Virus record (IMG/VR): IMGVR_UViG_3300007234_004238
Coordinates: 1-29,660 of that record
Length of the DNA stretch: 29,660 bases
Source: a virus
Direction: 5' to 3' (one strand)
Notes under the pieces: generated by a model
Told to the model about the DNA's origin: nothing
Database searches by the model: none
What the model saw: the letters and a program-made list of their open reading frames with translations, nothing else
Part shown: positions 1-17,470 of the stretch, in pieces
Position numbering within the stretch: position 1 is the first letter of the stretch
Layout of the letters: each line of letters starts with the position of its first letter
Program-made: the position numbers and the translations under genes

Positions 1-143
1 TTGAAGGTAAAGTAGGTGAAGAGTTATTAAACAAAATCACTGAAACTTCAAATGTAAGAGGTATGGCATTCACTTATTCAGGTGGTTTTAGAAACGTAGT
101 TTCTAACAAAGCGGCTAAATCTTTAAAAGATTTAAACAAGTAA
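1..143 (+). CDS. TRAP-type DctP-like solute-binding protein, N-terminal-lobe part (5' end outside window)
   Basis: The frame is open from base 3 and ends with TAA at 141-143, giving the last 46 residues of a protein that begins upstream. The visible part reads like the middle of a TRAP transporter solute-binding protein: a GKVGEELLNKI helix, then AFTYSGGFRNV, then KSLKDLNK directly before the stop. In DctP proteins this region is followed without a break by a GLKIR-type strand. Here the stop falls exactly at that point, and the missing C-terminal part begins in a separate frame at 223. The intact paralogue at 11606-12850 has the matching segment YTYSGGYR followed by LNDLSDKKF. The gene therefore appears split, not randomly truncated. 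Whether the upstream part carries a signal peptide cannot be seen. Confidence 0.75.
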   Translation, partial: EGKVGEELLNKITETSNVRGMAFTYSGGFRNVVSNKAAKSLKDLNK

Positions 144-160
144 TCACTATTAAGCGATTA

Positions 161-191
161 AAAAGGGTGGCTTCCGGTCACCCTTTTTTTT
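161..191 (+). terminator. Rho-independent terminator between the two DctP halves
   Basis: AAAAGGGTG (161-169) and CACCCTTTT (179-187) form a perfect 9-bp stem around a 9-base loop, followed by a T run to 191. It lies 17 bases after the stop codon of the first DctP half and should separate its transcript from the second half. Confidence 0.85.
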
Positions 192-208
192 GACTCATTT
201 ATCATATA

Positions 209-216
209 CATAAATA
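209..216 (+). promoter_or_regulatory. T4-late-like promoter box CATAAATA for the second DctP half
   Basis: CATAAATA differs from the T4 late consensus TATAAATA at one base and ends six bases before the ATG at 223. Late transcription normally starts about six bases after the octamer, so the transcript would begin at or next to the start codon. There is no Shine-Dalgarno sequence. In AT-rich DNA a single such match is weak evidence, but the same arrangement recurs in the window. Confidence 0.45.
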
Positions 217-222
217 TCTTGT

Positions 223-720
223 ATGGCAAAAATTAGAACCAACCGAAATCCAGTAGCCAAAGCAACATTCGAAGCATTAGGGTTTGACGAAGAACATAGA
301 CACGTTTGTGAAATTGAAGAACTCAAAGGAGCAATTGAAGAAGGACACTGCGATGCAGGCGAAACAGTTTACAGCAGAATTTATCCATTAGATCAAAACG
401 AAGTAGCTAAATCTGTTTTAGATACACAACATAGTTTATTTTTAACAGCAATGATTATGAGAAATGATTTTTGGGAAAAACTTTCTCCAGAAGTTCAAGC
501 AGTTCTTAAAGACGCGGCAATTAAAGCTGGGCGGAAAGAAAGAGAAACAACTATACTAGATGGTGAAGAAGCCAGAAAAAGATTAATCGCTGAAGGTGTT
601 GATGTTGTTGAGCCGTCTGAAGAAGAAAAAGCCGAAATGAGAGAAAAAACTAAAGTGGTTTATGATAAATTTAAAGATGTCTTCTCTCCAGGATTAATTG
701 ATAAAATCAAAAACGCTTAA
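223..720 (+). CDS. TRAP-type DctP-like solute-binding protein, C-terminal-lobe part (separate ORF)
   Basis: This 165-residue protein has no signal peptide and corresponds to the C-terminal half of a DctP-family binding protein. It begins MAKIRTNRNPVAKA, which matches the strand where DctP proteins carry the conserved carboxylate-binding arginine (GLKIR-type); here that would be Arg5. Later parts also fit the family: TQHSLFLTAMIMRNDFW, the helix SPEVQAVLKDAAIKAGR, and a basic C-terminal helix. With the upstream frame (stop at 143) it makes a contiguous family member with no residues obviously missing at the join. The two parts may be separate subunits, or this half may act alone. Its 3' end overlaps the convergent aminotransferase gene by four bases. 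Confidence 0.75.
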   Translation: MAKIRTNRNPVAKATFEALGFDEEHRHVCEIEELKGAIEEGHCDAGETVYSRIYPLDQNEVAKSVLDTQHSLFLTAMIMRNDFWEKLSPEVQAVLKDAAIKAGRKERETTILDGEEARKRLIAEGVDVVEPSEEEKAEMREKTKVVYDKFKDVFSPGLIDKIKNA

Positions 721-2726: not shown

Positions 2727-4025
2727 ATGTCACACCCTAATTCAAAAACTTTTTGTTCAAGTCCATGGTTTCATATGCGTATTTTGCCATCTGGACAATT
2801 ACGTTATTGTCGTTGGATGGAAGATAAAAAAAATCCTTTATCTAGTAATTTAAATCAAACAGATTTTTTAACTTTCTTTCAAAAAGAGATGTCAGATATT
2901 CGTTTAAAAATGTTGCAAGGAGAAACAGTATCTGCTTGTGACCAGTGTTTTCGAATGGAAGAACACGGTAAAATTAGTGGCAGAGAAAAACAATTATTAA
3001 AAGTTGGAATTAAATTAAACAATTTTACAAAAACATTTAGATCTAGTACATTTTACAATGAGTTTGAAAAATCTTCTAATAATCAAGGAGATACAGATCT
3101 ATGGCCTCAAGATTGGCAAATCGATTTAGGAAATTATTGTAATAGTGGTTGTATATTTTGTGGACCTGTTTACAGCTCTAAACTTGCTGTAGAATTTAAA
3201 AAATTGGGATTAATAGACCAACTGCCTCCTAAAAATTGGACTGACAACGAATCGGCTGTTGATAGATTTATTGAAATATTATCGCAATCTAAAAAAATAA
3301 CGTATTTGCATTTTTTAGGAGGTGAAACAATTATAACACCTGCCTTTAAAAAAATTCTTATTAAACTAATAGATCAAAAACTAAACAAAAATATATCAAT
3401 AGGTTTCACAACCAATCTAACTGTGTGGGATGAAGAAATTATTGAACTATTAAAACAGTATAAAGAAGTTAACCTAGGAATGAGTGTGGAATGTTTTCAT
3501 CCAGTCAATGATTATCTAAGATGGCCTAGTAAGATAGATGATGTATTTGAAATTATGCAACGTTGGATTGATGTGGGACAAAAACAAAAATGGTTAATAC
3601 AGTTTCGTATCACTCCTACAGTTTTTAGTATAGCACATCTACACACTATCTACGAATATGCTTATACACATAACATAGGTGTAGAAAGTTGTAATTTTTT
3701 ACACAATCCATCTTTTATGAGAATGACTATATTACCAAAAGATGTGAGACAAAAGATCGCTCAGGATTTAGAAGATTGGATACTAACCAAAGACACAACT
3801 ATAAAAAATAAAAAAATTATTAACACCAGAGATCCCAATGTGTCAAAAATTTACATTTTACAAGACGCCTATAGTTATGTAGAGTATTTGAGAAATGGTC
3901 CAGACGAAACACACAGTTGGCCAGCACTTGTAAACTATCTTAAAAAATTAGAAACTTCGAGAGGAAATTCGATATTGGATTATGCACCAGAGTATGAATC
4001 ATTTTTACGATCAGCAGAATATTAA
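2727..4025 (+). CDS. Radical SAM protein with N-terminal twitch/SPASM-like cysteine region (copy 1)
   Basis: The 432-residue protein carries the radical SAM signature CNSGCIFC (Cys138, Cys142, Cys145), which binds the [4Fe-4S] cluster that cleaves S-adenosylmethionine. LHFLGGETIITP near 197 fits the GGE motif of the TIM-barrel core. Before the core is a cysteine-bearing region: CSSPWFHMRILPSG with Cys10, then Cys28, and CDQC (Cys71, Cys74). This resembles an auxiliary-cluster twitch/SPASM module placed at the N terminus instead of the usual C terminus. The substrate is unknown. It follows clpP and overlaps the small gene at 3982. Two further proteins with the same arrangement are at 8615-9640 and 16286-17470. 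Confidence 0.85.
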   Translation: MSHPNSKTFCSSPWFHMRILPSGQLRYCRWMEDKKNPLSSNLNQTDFLTFFQKEMSDIRLKMLQGETVSACDQCFRMEEHGKISGREKQLLKVGIKLNNFTKTFRSSTFYNEFEKSSNNQGDTDLWPQDWQIDLGNYCNSGCIFCGPVYSSKLAVEFKKLGLIDQLPPKNWTDNESAVDRFIEILSQSKKITYLHFLGGETIITPAFKKILIKLIDQKLNKNISIGFTTNLTVWDEEIIELLKQYKEVNLGMSVECFHPVNDYLRWPSKIDDVFEIMQRWIDVGQKQKWLIQFRITPTVFSIAHLHTIYEYAYTHNIGVESCNFLHNPSFMRMTILPKDVRQKIAQDLEDWILTKDTTIKNKKIINTRDPNVSKIYILQDAYSYVEYLRNGPDETHSWPALVNYLKKLETSRGNSILDYAPEYESFLRSAEY

Positions 4026-5219: not shown

Positions 5220-6287
5220 CTAGAATTTATAGTTGATACCTGCTGTGAAGCCCGACGCATCTTTTCCTGCTGACACTGTGCCTAAGCCGCCCATTGTCAT
5301 AGAAGAGTTTGCATCGTTGTCCACTGTTGTGTAAGCACCGTACAGTGTTGCACCAGCGAACAGTTCTTTCTGCACAACCACACCGTAACCAGTTCCCTCG
5401 TTCAGTGAAGATTGTGAGTCATCTTTGGATGTTCCGTAGATACCTGTGATTGATGATGTATCGCTCAACGGTAATTTTGCAGAAATCAAAGTTGATGTTG
5501 ATTTAATACCATCAGCAGTTGTGGAGTTATCACCATATAGGTATACTGCACCCACTGTCAATGATCCCAAATTAGCAGAAGCACCGATAGCGGTTGCATC
5601 TTTTTCTGCCACTTTGGTTGCTCCGTCTTGATAGATCCTTCCGGCACCCACTTTAAAGTTTTCAGCAGTGTATACCACTGAAGCACCTTTCAGCTTGTCT
5701 GAAGCATCTGACGTTGCATCGTTAGCATTGAATGATCCACCTAGCTCAACTGAAAATCCGCTGATGTTTGGTGAAATGTATTTGAACACATTGGATGTGT
5801 CTGAACCCAATTCAATTGCTGAACCGTTAACTGGAATGTTAGTGAAGTTGCCAGCAGTTCCCATGATAGTGTCTATACCTTCAACTGCTACCACATCAGT
5901 TTTACCTGCTTTAACTGTACCTGATTTTCCTGTTAATGCTAGTGAAGCTTCTCTGTTAAAAGTTCCACCAGTGGATGACGTTGAACCAAACTCACCTTCT
6001 GTAGTAGTAAGTTTGCCTTCCAACGTACCGATAATTTTCATACCTTCAAACTCGGGTGAAGTTGCCTGCACTCCTAGTCTGCTGGTACTCAATTGACCGT
6101 CTGTCGTTCTTCTCACTGTGTCTGTGCCTGTGTCGACAGATTGAATGCCCACGTCCACGTTACCGTAGAGTTTAACATTCGCCTCATTAGCTTTGGCTTT
6201 CGGTGCTGGGAAAAACAGTGCTACTGCAACTGCTATCGCCACAACAAGAACCAAACCAATAAGGGTTTTCGTTTTGTTTATTTTCAT
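5220..6287 (-). CDS. Gram-negative outer-membrane porin (OmpC-like general porin family)
   Basis: The 355-residue protein has a signal peptide (MKINKTKT start, hydrophobic residues about 9-27, likely cleavage after AKA at 33). The mature part begins with the porin-like first strand VKLYGNVDVGIQ. The segment TSRLGVQATSPEFEGMKII matches the general-porin pattern SRLGfkg...G, and alternating strands continue to the end. The last residues are INYKF, with the terminal phenylalanine recognised by the BAM assembly machinery. It is therefore complete and should form an outer-membrane pore. It lies inside a phage-like gene set with its own sigma70-type promoter, an upstream late promoter and a structured leader. 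An AGGAG Shine-Dalgarno precedes the ATG. Base composition looks more GC-rich than most neighbours, which suggests later acquisition. Confidence 0.9.
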   Translation of the reverse strand: MKINKTKTLIGLVLVVAIAVAVALFFPAPKAKANEANVKLYGNVDVGIQSVDTGTDTVRRTTDGQLSTSRLGVQATSPEFEGMKIIGTLEGKLTTTEGEFGSTSSTGGTFNREASLALTGKSGTVKAGKTDVVAVEGIDTIMGTAGNFTNIPVNGSAIELGSDTSNVFKYISPNISGFSVELGGSFNANDATSDASDKLKGASVVYTAENFKVGAGRIYQDGATKVAEKDATAIGASANLGSLTVGAVYLYGDNSTTADGIKSTSTLISAKLPLSDTSSITGIYGTSKDDSQSSLNEGTGYGVVVQKELFAGATLYGAYTTVDNDANSSMTMGGLGTVSAGKDASGFTAGINYKF

Positions 6288-7030: not shown

Positions 7031-7630
7031 GTGGAAACATTTTTATCGAGTGCATTTGTAATTTTTAGAGAAGGTTTTGAAGCTTGGTTAATTGCTGTAT
7101 TAGGTCTAGCATCCACAACCAATAAACATAATATTAGAATTATATGGATAGCGATTATAGCGTCTATTTTAGCCACTCTAGCATTGGGCAGTATAACTGC
7201 TCAGTTTTTAGGTAGCCACCAAAATATAGAGCGATTTGACGGGGTTATAGGGGTGATTACAGGGGTTTTATTAGCTTATGTTGCTTGGGTTTGCCACGGT
7301 GCTAGTCAACACATTAAAGAGCTACCCTATCACAATACACTGCTGTTAGGTATAGTGTTTTTTGGTGTAATGTTTAGAGAAGGAGTAGAAGTTATAGTTT
7401 TCCTCACAGGCATAATCTCACAGAGTCAATCCTACTATTTGGTTGGTTTGGGCTGTTTGGTTGGTTTGGTAATTTTGGTAGCCTTTGGTTTGGTATCCCA
7501 TACTCAAATTAAAAAAATTCCTGTAAAAAATATCTTTAAAGTAAGCCGTTGGATTTTTTCTGTTCTGGCTGTATACTTTCTTTATAATGGTGTTCACGAA
7601 ATAATGGAACACGGGTTATTGCCCCTTTAG
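7031..7630 (+). CDS. FTR1-family iron permease (short)
   Basis: This 199-residue membrane protein carries both iron-binding motifs of the FTR1/EfeU family: REGFE (13-17) and REGVE (116-120), each inside a predicted transmembrane helix. About six or seven hydrophobic segments follow one another. It is shorter than EfeU-type permeases (about 270-280 residues), with a reduced C-terminal part. It should move ferric iron across the inner membrane, normally after oxidation by a partner protein; no partner is seen here. The start is GTG at 7031, five bases after AAGGA. The last codons and the TAG stop (7628-7630) lie inside the tRNA-Thr gene. An 18-base in-frame duplication occurs near the end (7438-7469). 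Confidence 0.85.
   Translation: METFLSSAFVIFREGFEAWLIAVLGLASTTNKHNIRIIWIAIIASILATLALGSITAQFLGSHQNIERFDGVIGVITGVLLAYVAWVCHGASQHIKELPYHNTLLLGIVFFGVMFREGVEVIVFLTGIISQSQSYYLVGLGCLVGLVILVAFGLVSHTQIKKIPVKNIFKVSRWIFSVLAVYFLYNGVHEIMEHGLLPL
7438..7469 (+). repeat. 18-base-period in-frame repeat, rich in GG tracts
   Basis: The 14-base word TTTGGTTGGTTTGG occurs at 7438-7451 and again at 7456-7469, shifted by exactly 18 bases, so the protein repeats LVGL in LVGLGCLVGL. The many short GG tracts could form a two-tier G-quadruplex in the coding strand. Confidence 0.6.
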
Positions 7631-7873: not shown

Positions 7874-8623
7874 ATGAAATACGGTTATTATTCAGACAAT
7901 GAGATACCAGAAAGTATAGCAAATTCTGAAAATTATAAAAAGTTATATAAACTTAATTCTAAAGGATATCGATGCCAGGAATTTTCACCATTGCCTAACG
8001 GTGGAAAAAATGTTGTAGTATTAGGATGTTCTCATACATTTGGGGAAGGACTGAATGAAAACGAAGTATGGGTATCTCAGTTAGAAAAAATAAAAAATAA
8101 TAATATATATCAAAGTTCGACGAAATTAAGATTTTGGAACTTAGCTCACCCAGGAGCATCTCCAGATTTATGTGTAAGAATATTATACGGAACAGAAAAA
8201 GTTTTGTTTCCTAAAATTATAATTGTATGTTGGCCAGTTTGGAGTCGTAGAGAAAGGTTAGACAAGTACCCGCAAAGTTTAACAAGTGATGATATACTAC
8301 TTAAGAATGAAAATGAACAAACAGACTGTAATAACTTTTTAAAATGTGTATTTCAAATAGAAAAATTTGCAGAACATACTCATGCAAAAGTTTTTCATTG
8401 TTTTTCACAAGATATTTACGATATTCCTAATACTACAAATGTTTTTAAAGAAACATCTATTAAATCTTGTTGGCCAGAGTGGGATCGTCGAAAACATTTT
8501 CAAAATTTAATAAAAATTACAACTGAACCTAATTTAGCAAGAGATGGTATACATTATGGTACAAAACATCATGCATCATTTGCTAAAAAATTTTATAATA
8601 AATTTGGAACAAAATTAAAGTAG
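7874..8623 (+). CDS. SGNH/GDSL-hydrolase-like protein
   Basis: A start at ATG 7874 gives 249 residues; a longer frame open from 7715 would run through two tRNA genes and is rejected. VVVLGCSHTFGEG (Ser53) resembles the block I serine motif of SGNH hydrolases, NLAHPGASPD (about 89-98) lies where an oxyanion-hole motif is expected, and ARDGIHYG (Asp224, His227) gives the DxxH catalytic pair. There is no signal peptide, so it would act in the cytoplasm or as part of the particle. SGNH proteins act as esterases or acyltransferases, often on glycans; the substrate here is unknown. The gene converges on the radical SAM gene at 8615 with a 9-base overlap. Confidence 0.75.
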   Translation: MKYGYYSDNEIPESIANSENYKKLYKLNSKGYRCQEFSPLPNGGKNVVVLGCSHTFGEGLNENEVWVSQLEKIKNNNIYQSSTKLRFWNLAHPGASPDLCVRILYGTEKVLFPKIIIVCWPVWSRRERLDKYPQSLTSDDILLKNENEQTDCNNFLKCVFQIEKFAEHTHAKVFHCFSQDIYDIPNTTNVFKETSIKSCWPEWDRRKHFQNLIKITTEPNLARDGIHYGTKHHASFAKKFYNKFGTKLK

Positions 8624-9640
8624 TGTTCGATATTCAACAAACTCGTTAATACTATAATTGATTTTAGAAATTTTTTCTAAAATTTTATTTAGGTGAATAT
8701 TTTCAGGATGTGTTTTATTTGATACTGCATGGGTTTCAAAGTCTTTAAGAGTATTCCAATCAGTTATTTGATTCAAATATATTTTGTCAACATTGTACTT
8801 AATTCCTAATTCTATTAGAGATTCTATTTCATGATAATTACTTTTTTGAACTACAAAATGTAAATGTATTTTAAAGTTTTTAATTGATTTTAAAAATTCT
8901 AAATTTTCTAATAATAACTCATAAACCCCGCCTACTCTTAATTTTTCATATGTTTCTTTTGTTGCTCCATCCACACTAATACCTATATGATCAAGATTGT
9001 CTGTAATATGTTTAAATTTATGAAAATTTTTCTTCAGTAATAATCCGTTGGTTTGAATACTGTATCGTAAATGGGTTAATTCTTTAGTTTTCATCATGAA
9101 TTGTCTATAAATTAAACTAGCAAAAGGATCACCATCTGAGCCAATATGTACTTGTATTAAGTGTGTTTGTTCTTTTAAAAAATCTAAAACTTTATTAATT
9201 AACGATAGTCTAATATCAAACTGTTTTCCATTTTTAAGAAATATTTTTTCTTTCCTACAACTAGGACAACTAAGGTTACAACTATCATCGATTGCTAATC
9301 GTATGTGTTTAATTTGTTTATCAATATTGTTTTGTTCCCACGGATTAGTTCCTTTGTAATCCAACAAATAAGAACATTGCTTATTATTACAATATCTATA
9401 AGATCCGTCTATTATAGATTCTTGTAACAACGAGGCAGTATTACTGTTTAATATTTCTTGTAAAGATTTTGTATTAAGATTACCTACACTTTGTGGCAAC
9501 CATGCAGTACACTCACACAAATAGCAAGAGCCTTGTTTGTCAATTAAAACAGTATCAAATGGTCTCGGACACTTTTTTTGTATCTTTAAATTTTTACTTG
9601 TGTCGATCCCGTACCAATCAAACAATCTAGTGTTAATCAC
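8615..9640 (-). CDS. Radical SAM protein with N-terminal SPASM-like region (copy 2)
   Basis: In this 341-residue protein the cluster motif CNLSCPSC (Cys121, Cys125, Cys128) follows a long cysteine-rich N-terminal part. That part reads like a SPASM segment: CPRPFDTVLIDKQGSCYLC, then GNLNTKSLQEILNS, with Cys24, Cys39, Cys42, Cys44, Cys84 and Cys89. SPASM domains bind auxiliary iron-sulfur clusters and are normally placed after the radical SAM core. The core includes a GSDGDPF segment and GISVDGATKETYEKLR, typical of this superfamily. No peptide substrate gene is obvious nearby. It overlaps the upstream small gene by eight bases and is probably translated with it. Confidence 0.85.
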   Translation of the reverse strand: MINTRLFDWYGIDTSKNLKIQKKCPRPFDTVLIDKQGSCYLCECTAWLPQSVGNLNTKSLQEILNSNTASLLQESIIDGSYRYCNNKQCSYLLDYKGTNPWEQNNIDKQIKHIRLAIDDSCNLSCPSCRKEKIFLKNGKQFDIRLSLINKVLDFLKEQTHLIQVHIGSDGDPFASLIYRQFMMKTKELTHLRYSIQTNGLLLKKNFHKFKHITDNLDHIGISVDGATKETYEKLRVGGVYELLLENLEFLKSIKNFKIHLHFVVQKSNYHEIESLIELGIKYNVDKIYLNQITDWNTLKDFETHAVSNKTHPENIHLNKILEKISKINYSINEFVEYRTLL

Positions 9641-11605: not shown

Positions 11606-12850
11606 TTATTTTTTGTTGTAATACTTTTTACCTAATTTTATAATGTCTTCTACTAGTGTTGGATCGACATCGATACCTTCAAGTATTTGTTCATCATAAA
11701 CTTTTTTAGCCGCTTGTCTTAATCGAGAATCGTCTGCTTCAGAAATGTTATGAATTGTAACTCCTCTTCCTTTTGCATCAGCCTCCCATTTAGCCGCATC
11801 TTGTAACGACCAAACACGCTCAAGTCTAGCAACAGTCATTGCCGCTTCTTTAAATGCTAATTGTTCGTCAATTGATAAAGAATCAATGAAACTTTGATTT
11901 CCTAAAATAGCAGTCATGAACATACTGTGGTTAGTTTTTAAAACGTGCTTACCAAAGAATCTTAAGTAAGTTGTTTCGATAGCGCCGCCATTTTCAGCCA
12001 TATCTCCTACATCTTCTGCTGTTGACAAGTAACGAGGTATATGATTTACTTTAGCGAATTCAAAGAATTTACTACTTGGTTTAGTAAAAGAAATAAACTT
12101 TTTATCACTTAAATCATTTAAACAAGTAATTTCATCTGTAGAACCAATAATACGATATCCACCTGAGTATGTATAACCTAACGCATTGATTCCGGTTAAT
12201 TCTCTCGCACTATCACTAACTCTTTGACCAATTGGTCCGTCTAATGTTTCTGTTACGTGATCATGATTTTCAAACAGATAAGGTAAATCGATTGCATGAA
12301 AATCTGGATGTAAATGACTTCCGCAAATATTGATTTGTGTTTGACTTAATTCAAAATGACCATTTTTCATATGGTTGAAAAAGTTTTCCCACCAACTTAA
12401 TAGTTGTGTAAACTCTTTAACAGTTTCTGCTTTTTCTGGTTGAATACTTCCAAGATTTGCTAATGTGTTATATGGATTTTCTAATCCTGGAATAGAAACA
12501 GATGTTTTTTTCCACAAATCTAATGTATCTGGTAAAACCTTATCTCCATACAACTGAAGATAAGAACCGATAGTATGAACTTCAATAGCAAATTTTCCAG
12601 GGCAAGATTTTTCTAATTCTTCAGCAAATGCTCTTGCTGTTCTAATGAATAAATCTAATGGAAAATGTGCAATAATCCAACGAACTTTTGTTCTTCCCGG
12701 TTCAACGTTCATTGGTTTTCTATCAACGCATGATAGATGGTATGATGGTCCTTCAATAGATCCACCACCTATTTTGTCTAATATATTTTTTTCTCTAGCT
12801 TCTTGCACTTTTTGTGCAATATATTTTTTTGCATTCTCGTTTAATGACAT
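11606..12850 (-). CDS. Intact DctP-like TRAP solute-binding protein without signal peptide
   Basis: The 414-residue protein matches the TRAP periplasmic-binding fold: a first strand RWIIAHFP, IEVHTIGSYLQLYGDK, YTYSGGYRIIGS, and NHSMFMTAILGNQSFIDSL followed by C-terminal helices. It is longer than usual (about 320-340) because of an extra N-terminal 50-60 residues, which are charged and contain no hydrophobic signal peptide (MSLNENAKKYIAQKVQEARE). It is therefore predicted to stay in the cytoplasm. At the position of the conserved ligand-binding arginine it reads KKFISF instead of GLKIR, so classic carboxylate binding may be lost. AAAGGA before the ATG and a promoter at 12893-12922 indicate independent expression. 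No TRAP membrane subunits are in the window. Confidence 0.85.
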   Translation of the reverse strand: MSLNENAKKYIAQKVQEAREKNILDKIGGGSIEGPSYHLSCVDRKPMNVEPGRTKVRWIIAHFPLDLFIRTARAFAEELEKSCPGKFAIEVHTIGSYLQLYGDKVLPDTLDLWKKTSVSIPGLENPYNTLANLGSIQPEKAETVKEFTQLLSWWENFFNHMKNGHFELSQTQINICGSHLHPDFHAIDLPYLFENHDHVTETLDGPIGQRVSDSARELTGINALGYTYSGGYRIIGSTDEITCLNDLSDKKFISFTKPSSKFFEFAKVNHIPRYLSTAEDVGDMAENGGAIETTYLRFFGKHVLKTNHSMFMTAILGNQSFIDSLSIDEQLAFKEAAMTVARLERVWSLQDAAKWEADAKGRGVTIHNISEADDSRLRQAAKKVYDEQILEGIDVDPTLVEDIIKLGKKYYNKK

Positions 12851-16284: not shown

Positions 16285-16290
16285 ATTATA
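16285..16290 (-). promoter_or_regulatory. Extended -10 box (TGTTATAAT) for the gp41-like gene
   Basis: On the minus strand TG, one base, then TATAAT, eight bases before the helicase ATG. It overlaps the stop codon of the radical SAM gene. No clear -35 is present, which is compatible with an extended -10 promoter. Confidence 0.45.
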
Positions 16291-17470
16291 ACATCTTTTC
16301 TAATTGAAGCCACTCTAAAAATGACTTTGGAAATATATTCAATTTTAAATTCCTTCTTTTGGTAAATTCTAATAAAAATTCTCTTATGTTGAGTCTTTCT
16401 ACCTCTTTTGGTAGATTTTGTATTGATAGTAAAATAGGACTACTGACTTCTTTTGGTAATTCTTTAAACGAATTTATTAATTGTTTTTTACTCTCTTCGT
16501 CTAATACATAAGGAGACATCATAGATGGTTGATAAGCAAACGTTACAGCTATTTTATCGTTTTTGAAATAGTTATAGAAATCTTTAAATCCAAACAATGA
16601 TAGATTAGATAGTGTGCAGTGAAATTGGAAATTAATTTTAAATTCTCTTAACAAATTTATTTTCTTTTGGAATTCTCCCCAAACAATACCAAATCGATTA
16701 AATTCTAAATACTCTTTAATATTTTCAGCACTAATTTTAATTAAAAGATTTTTAATATTTTTTAATTTTTCTAACATATTCTTGAATCGAGACTCGCTTA
16801 CTCCTAATCCTGTATACAATTCTACTACGGCATTAGATTTTAAATTAAGTGTTTCTAATACTGATATTAATTGATTATCTAATAACGGCTCTCCTCCAGT
16901 TATTATAAGTTTTTTTAATTTAGATGATGAGAATTCTATTTCTTTTAATAAAATTTGATAGTGCTCGGTTGTTTTTAAATCTGGTTGACTAATAGCTAGT
17001 AATACTTTGTCTTTAATAGATGCATTATACCTTGGGTCTTTATATTCTGTTAATTGATAATTTCCTTTGTTTACAATATCTCTTCGCCAAGCATTACTAT
17101 ATTCTTTACAACAATATGAGCAAGTTAAATTACAGTCAATGCCAATAGTTAAATCAATAATCTCTGGTTCTGTCACAACATCGATATGTGTTTTTTCTAT
17201 TCCTTGTTGATGAATTCTAGGACTAATAGCTCCTACATCTTCTGCCCTCCAACAATTTTGTTCACAACTTTTATTACGCTCATTACGAAGCATCTGTTCA
17301 CGTTCATAAACATTAACTGGAGTATTAAATAAATTTCCTGGATTTTTTTTAAGCCATTCAAAATCGATTGGGTGTGGTACAGCGGCATGACAGTTATAAA
17401 AAGTTTTAGATGCTAAATCTATCTTAAGAAATTTAAATTTCATTGAACAATAATAATTTCTATCGGTCAT
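16286..17470 (-). CDS. Radical SAM protein with N-terminal cysteine region (copy 3)
   Basis: The 394-residue protein carries CNLTCSYC (Cys113, Cys117, Cys120), followed by KLIITGGEPLLDNQ (GGE motif). The N-terminal part has Cys8, Cys27, Cys69 and Cys73 (SCEQNC), similar in layout to the other two radical SAM proteins here. It sits between primase and replicative helicase, overlapping the primase by 11 bases, so it is expressed with replication genes. ATG at 17443 is a possible alternative start. The substrate is unknown. Candidates such as modification of a protein, nucleotide or glycan cannot be separated by sequence alone. Confidence 0.85.
   Translation of the reverse strand: MTDRNYYCSMKFKFLKIDLASKTFYNCHAAVPHPIDFEWLKKNPGNLFNTPVNVYEREQMLRNERNKSCEQNCWRAEDVGAISPRIHQQGIEKTHIDVVTEPEIIDLTIGIDCNLTCSYCCKEYSNAWRRDIVNKGNYQLTEYKDPRYNASIKDKVLLAISQPDLKTTEHYQILLKEIEFSSSKLKKLIITGGEPLLDNQLISVLETLNLKSNAVVELYTGLGVSESRFKNMLEKLKNIKNLLIKISAENIKEYLEFNRFGIVWGEFQKKINLLREFKINFQFHCTLSNLSLFGFKDFYNYFKNDKIAVTFAYQPSMMSPYVLDEESKKQLINSFKELPKEVSSPILLSIQNLPKEVERLNIREFLLEFTKRRNLKLNIFPKSFLEWLQLEKML

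Follow-up and report, generated by a model that had tools for sequence, protein, structure and literature searches.

A TRAP-type solute-binding protein encoded as two adjacent open reading frames in a clade of large phages

Split genes in T4-type phages mostly encode replication enzymes and are linked to homing endonucleases. Several are known to give two working polypeptides, namely nrdA of phage Aeh1, gene 43 of phages 25 and 44RR and the T4 topoisomerase gene (PMC2988022). The two polypeptides from Aeh1 nrdA and from T4 39/60 form one functional enzyme in each case (PMC2988022), and these splits are tied to the homing endonucleases mobE/mobA. In Aeromonas phage 44RR an untranslated intercistronic sequence lies between 43A and 43B, and the two parts of gene 43 from phage 25 co-purify and are active (PMC2988022). 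The locus described here is likewise a T4-type gene cut, in some phages, by a short untranslated stretch, and 44RR is the closest case; however, gene 43 encodes a DNA polymerase, whereas the phage gene studied here encodes a binding protein, has no endonuclease at its junction (nor any counterpart of mobE/mobA) and was likely split by a small indel. As with the other T4-type split genes, relatives carry one intact gene (318 aa). The encoded protein has the fold and the two domains of the TRAP binding proteins (PF03480; IseP 8t9t, 4p47, 4xfe, SiaP), together with their two carboxylate-binding arginines and the histidine of the hinge strand, but it consists of two chains, lacks a signal peptide, has no DctQ or DctM alongside it in the phage, and replaces the third ligand Asn by Gly, Thr or Ser. 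Thus a binding protein is cut within one domain, between its ligand arginines and without an endonuclease, and this form persists throughout a clade of large phages.

The window, that is, the whole stretch of DNA that was analyzed, is a linear virus record of 29,660 bases. Its helicase is nearest to those of large phages such as PA5oct (49%), and by this match the window represents part of the genome of a large T4-type phage. The 3′ end of the gene for the N-terminal (N) chain occupies positions 1 to 143 of the plus strand in frame 3; because the contig end cuts this frame, its start lies off the contig and only the last 46 residues are visible, reading EGKVGEELLNKITETSNVRGMAFTYSGGFRNVVSNKAAKSLKDLNK directly before a TAA stop at 141-143. 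The gene for the C-terminal (C) chain follows at 223 to 720 on the plus strand and encodes 165 residues beginning MAKIRTNRNP. The N-chain remnant matches PF03480 positions 92-135 (E 7.9e-5, narrowly missing the curated cut-off) and the C chain matches positions 138-283 (E 8.4e-26), so the two frames are consecutive parts of one DctP; this agrees with the sequence-only reading, which had described a continuous DctP with no obvious residue lost. The N chains of relatives match PF03480 9-134, so that together with the two window ORFs the full length of the family is covered. The remnant, which shares 75% identity with the N chain of the related locus L003, holds the first carboxylate-binding arginine (GGFR); the C chain comprises most of domain II and the return into domain I, and holds the second (KIR). 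An intact DctP paralogue, outside the split pair, lies at 11606 to 12850 on the minus strand (414 aa; PF03480 E 1.3e-22); its place in the tree is among intact phage DctPs and distant from the split clade. This paralogue has an N-terminal extension and belongs to a distant phage group, part of which is without the second ligand arginine.

Relatives of the pair were recovered indirectly. The C ORF as a single-protein query gave no match, and a tblastn search against isolated phages gave no match to the C chain and one weak match for the N chain. The neighboring aminotransferase used as a query led to a first relative, and alignments of the N and C chains then yielded the remaining loci. A 75-kb relative has the same gene order, in which an N ORF is followed, after 81 nt, by two C ORFs in tandem. 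A 348-aa open frame across N and C that was reported for the L003 contig was discarded, as a TAA is present in the sequence. Two BFVD entries, A0A6J7WI33 (159 aa) and A0A6J7WKL0 (162 aa), are N and C chains of the same family, 88% and 75% identical to the pair that we modeled; they are automatic entries named 'TRAP transporter solute receptor DctP/TeaA' from an uncultured Caudovirales phage. A limited literature search found no description of this split, of a phage DctP or of a split binding protein, and we know of no other natural two-chain solute-binding protein.

The split pair is present in 26 viral contigs, the window included, from many metagenomes. DctP-like proteins as such are not rare in phages (144 loci in IMG/VR); the sequence-only reading had called a stand-alone C-terminal lobe of a TRAP binding protein in a phage unusual. 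Complete N chains in relatives have 156-160 residues, and the C chain begins at MK[ILV]R[TA]N[RK]NP in every split locus; at other loci the gene is intact and encodes 312-350 aa, and a scan of genome contigs found relatives that were all intact, in MAGs. In the tree of N sequences all split rows form one clade (support 97/95) nested among intact genes, and the tree of C sequences also shows one split clade, with moderate support (84/71). Uninterrupted frames are thus found in the outgroup, the nearest members of which are the 318-aa genes. Median dN/dS is 0.106 for N and 0.085 for C, indicating strong purifying selection on both halves. A stop within DctP resembles decay at first sight, and the N chain of the window is cut by a contig end, yet the number of contigs, the single clade and dN/dS ratios of about 0.1 exclude an assembly error and make decay very unlikely; moreover, a homologous junction of 79-82 nt occurs in two other assemblies. 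A pseudogene or an assembly artefact is therefore extremely improbable, and the proposal of a settled gene fission rather than a sequencing error is upheld. Comparison of the sequences supports one fission in the ancestor of the phage clade, with both ORFs since kept under selection. In one phage an intact DctP follows two split N-C pairs arranged in tandem (L050:6001-9129).

The N and C genes are adjacent in every split locus and mostly overlap or lie 3 nt apart, with junctions ranging from -23 to +82 nt. We distinguished a 4-nt ATGA overlap (7 loci), overlaps of 17, 20 or 23 nt (9 loci), an overlap with a GTG start (L064 and L071), the arrangement TAA TAA ATG, i.e. TAATAAATG (4 loci), a gap of 18-19 nt (2 loci) and a gap of 79-82 nt with a terminator (the window, L087 and L044). 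No homing endonuclease ORF or remnant was found between the halves in any contig. We considered whether recoding at the junction by frameshift, read-through or bypass, as in T4 gene 60, could give one full-length chain. Two features would suit such an event: in L040-L043 the ORFs are in frame and parted only by TAA TAA, and a -2 shift at GGT GAA in loci of the overlap class would bring back the ancestral G-E-K. However, the C ORF is found in relative frames 0, 1 and 2 across the clade, so no common frameshift, bypass or read-through can rejoin the halves. Each C ORF also has its own start (ATG throughout, GTG in two), the gap in the window contains a terminator, and the junction sequences differ, with no common slippery or take-off/landing sequence seen. 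We regard recoding as very unlikely.

The sequences around the break suggest how a fission into two separately translated ORFs could have arisen. The nearest intact genes read GAT TTA ACT GGT GAA AAA CTA CGT at this point, and the split genes read ACT GGT/GAT GAA GAT. In L064 and L071 the N frame is CTA ACT GGT GAA GAT CAG AAC TAA, and the other frame is GTG AAG ATC AGA ACT AAT. Hence a small indel is the likely origin of the split: a net deletion of 2 nt flanking the A run would divide an intact, signal-less phage DctP gene by opening the new frame with GTG or ATG right at the break and placing a stop just behind it; a GGT to GAT change would then turn a GTG start into ATG. After the split, the junction drifted while selection kept both ORFs, and in the subclade of the window a terminator and a late-type promoter sequence, both present in the DNA and presumably active, arose between them. 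From overlap through coupling to full transcriptional separation, the junctions offer a natural series on the fixation and separate regulation of a split protein.

To relate the break to the protein fold, the N and C ORFs of L040 were joined by reading TAA TAA as two glycines and modeled with 50 relatives. The joined model (pLDDT 95.5, pTM 0.90) has a two-domain Venus-flytrap fold with a long hinge helix; it matches solved TRAP binding proteins with Foldseek TM scores of 0.83-0.86, and superposes on them with Z 33 and an rmsd of 2.2-2.7 over about 300 residues. Modeled as one chain, the two halves are thus compatible with a single binding protein. The C chain of the window alone gave a pLDDT of 61.5, with residues 48-80 under 50; this model is only suggestive that the C chain does not fold confidently by itself, since its alignment was shallower (22 close rows, against 50 for the joined model). 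In IseP, domain I comprises residues 1-153 and 243-281 and domain II residues 154-242 and 282-336; the residues that hold the anion are Arg156 and Arg177 (PMC11668362). Arg156 aligns with the GGFR of the N chain and Arg177 with the K[ILV]R at the start of the C chain. These limits and alignments therefore place the break about 20 residues past the hinge, inside domain II and between the two ligand arginines, and give the C chain parts of both domains. The suggestion that the gene is split at its hinge, with the second ORF encoding a stand-alone C-terminal lobe, is thus not borne out. Neither arginine varies within the split clade or among the intact genes closest to it, while part of the distant paralogues has lost the second. 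The third-ligand column (Asn217 of IseP) holds the substituted residue noted above in the split chains, and binding could differ accordingly; the solved glycerol-phosphate-binding members are also without this Asn (PMC11668362).

Given a break between the two arginines and a C chain with parts of both domains, the N-C pair should be obligate, as far as alignment and model indicate. The two chains would join non-covalently and build the pocket together, each contributing one ligand arginine. Alternatively, the chains could have ceased to cooperate after fission, the C chain taking on a function of its own. Consistent with such a parting, tandem C copies occur in L087, L044 and L052 (L087:6559-7536, L044:6560-7539, L052:6467-7439), C chains are more diverged than N chains, and in one subclade the C chain has its own promoter and terminator sequences. 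Weighing against it, the genes are always adjacent and usually overlapping or nearly so, both arginines are kept, one per chain, and no independent fold is predicted for the C chain. We consider such a separation unlikely. In L044 the tandem C copies have near-identical C-terminal ends and differ in their first 60 residues.

We next describe the 79 bases between the two ORFs of the window, which had been said to hold a strong terminator and a late-like box; both are found within 144-222. An intrinsic terminator lies at 160-190 on the plus strand (stem 160-172/176-188, then T's), and bases 144-222 fold with -18.4 kcal/mol (z -3.6), a value reached by 1 of 200 shuffled sequences. L087 and L044 have a homologous terminator with compensatory changes at two stem pairs, from U-A to C-G at one and from G-C to A-U at the other; these were read by eye from the sequences, as the loop is out of register by one base in the three-row alignment. 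The exact terminator sequence as a query gave no match. A search of Rfam with positions 1-1000 returned only sub-threshold matches, to DapZ (E 0.005) and PhrS (E 0.04), which are well below the gathering scores and were judged chance matches to terminator-like sequence. The terminator is limited to the subclade of the window, and most relatives have overlapping or adjacent ORFs.

A T4-late-type promoter box, CATAAATA, lies at 209-216 on the plus strand, its core TAAATA beginning 12 nt before the ATG at 223. In the 75-kb relative this core stands 10-14 nt before the ATG at 15 of 88 ORF starts, compared with 2 of 1442 other plus-strand ATGs, and in the window it stands 11-13 nt before 7 of 37 starts. 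Of the 18 genes of the 75-kb relative that have the box within 18 nt of the start, 16 are without a Shine-Dalgarno-like sequence. Genes that bear the box include those for the large terminase (TerL), the tail-tube protein and virion proteins. The exact sequence TATAAATA was rejected as a late box since it is not enriched, whereas the shorter core at a fixed distance is. By analogy to T4 late promoters, transcription would begin at the AUG or immediately ahead of it; the box preceding position 223 is thus very likely a late promoter, and the C-chain mRNA very likely near-leaderless. In L087 and L044 a Shine-Dalgarno-like sequence precedes the N chain and a CATAAATA box lies some 65 nt upstream of it, so that both chains are probably late. 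The claim of separate control is thus plausible for the subclade of the window, where a conserved terminator and a box from a statistically significant late-promoter class speak for it, but does not extend to the split in general, to which the terminator does not belong. The starts with a TAAATA core in the window are 223, 717 (-), 4874 (-), 7874, 9901 (-), 18489 (-) and 26896 (-), and others are found in L120-L123 (75-kb relative); together these genes resemble a whole class of leaderless or near-leaderless late mRNAs in large T4-type phages.

No signal peptide was found on the chains, as judged from the N chains of relatives. The N-chain model begins at strand 1, at several loci stop codons lie from directly to a few codons upstream of the N-chain Met, and the hydropathy of the N terminus is low compared with that of the neighboring Bug protein. 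Searches for DctM/DctQ gave no match in six phage records of up to 357 kb, two of them from the split clade (357 and 220 kb); these records may be incomplete, and the search covered phage sequence rather than partners in the host. With neither a signal peptide nor DctM/DctQ, we rejected a phage-borne TRAP transporter. Because it has no signal peptide, the two-chain protein, probably made late, would stay inside the cell or go into the particle, and it would bind a small anion. The explanation as a whole, a single ancestral fission in which both ORFs were kept to make a late, non-secreted, two-chain anion-binding protein, is in our judgment probable. Such a protein may act as a sensor, as a ligand sponge or as part of the particle. 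Why large phages keep the binding protein of a transporter without its signal peptide or the transporter is a question raised by these loci.

As for a place in the phage particle, whether for adsorption or packed for the next host, the C chain has a late-type box ahead of it in the window and in both L087 and L044, genes for terminase, tail tube and virion proteins carry boxes of this class, and some distant relatives adjoin tail sheath and tail-fibre genes. The neighbors of most split loci, by contrast, are not structural genes but metabolic ones and a binding protein of the Bug/TctC type, and we hold a particle component to be possible but doubtful. A broader and rather unlikely scheme is a modular two-chain protein in which one N chain serves alternative C chains, the tandem copies of L087, L044 and L052, expressed from late near-leaderless mRNAs as a transporter-free sensor, ligand sponge or particle component. 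If this were true, a phage could change ligand or dosage by duplicating or swapping the C chain alone.

Several features of the surrounding genes were also recorded. A TctC/Bug-type binding protein with a signal-peptide-like start adjoins DctP in L056 (L056:4959-5873) and about 40 related loci, often with QueC-like ATPase-type genes and, by eye, AhpC/AhpD-like genes upstream, and the whole forms a recurring module. The window itself encodes a Gram-negative porin at 5220-6287 (-) (PF13609, E 2.7e-32) and an FTR1-type iron permease at 7031-7630 (+) (PF03239, E 1.5e-9); FTR1-like genes are also near the split DctP in L031, L040 and L044. Candidate radical-SAM/SPASM ORFs, with CxxxCxxC-like motifs seen by eye, are located in the window at 2727-4025, 8615-9640 (-) and 16286-17470 (-).
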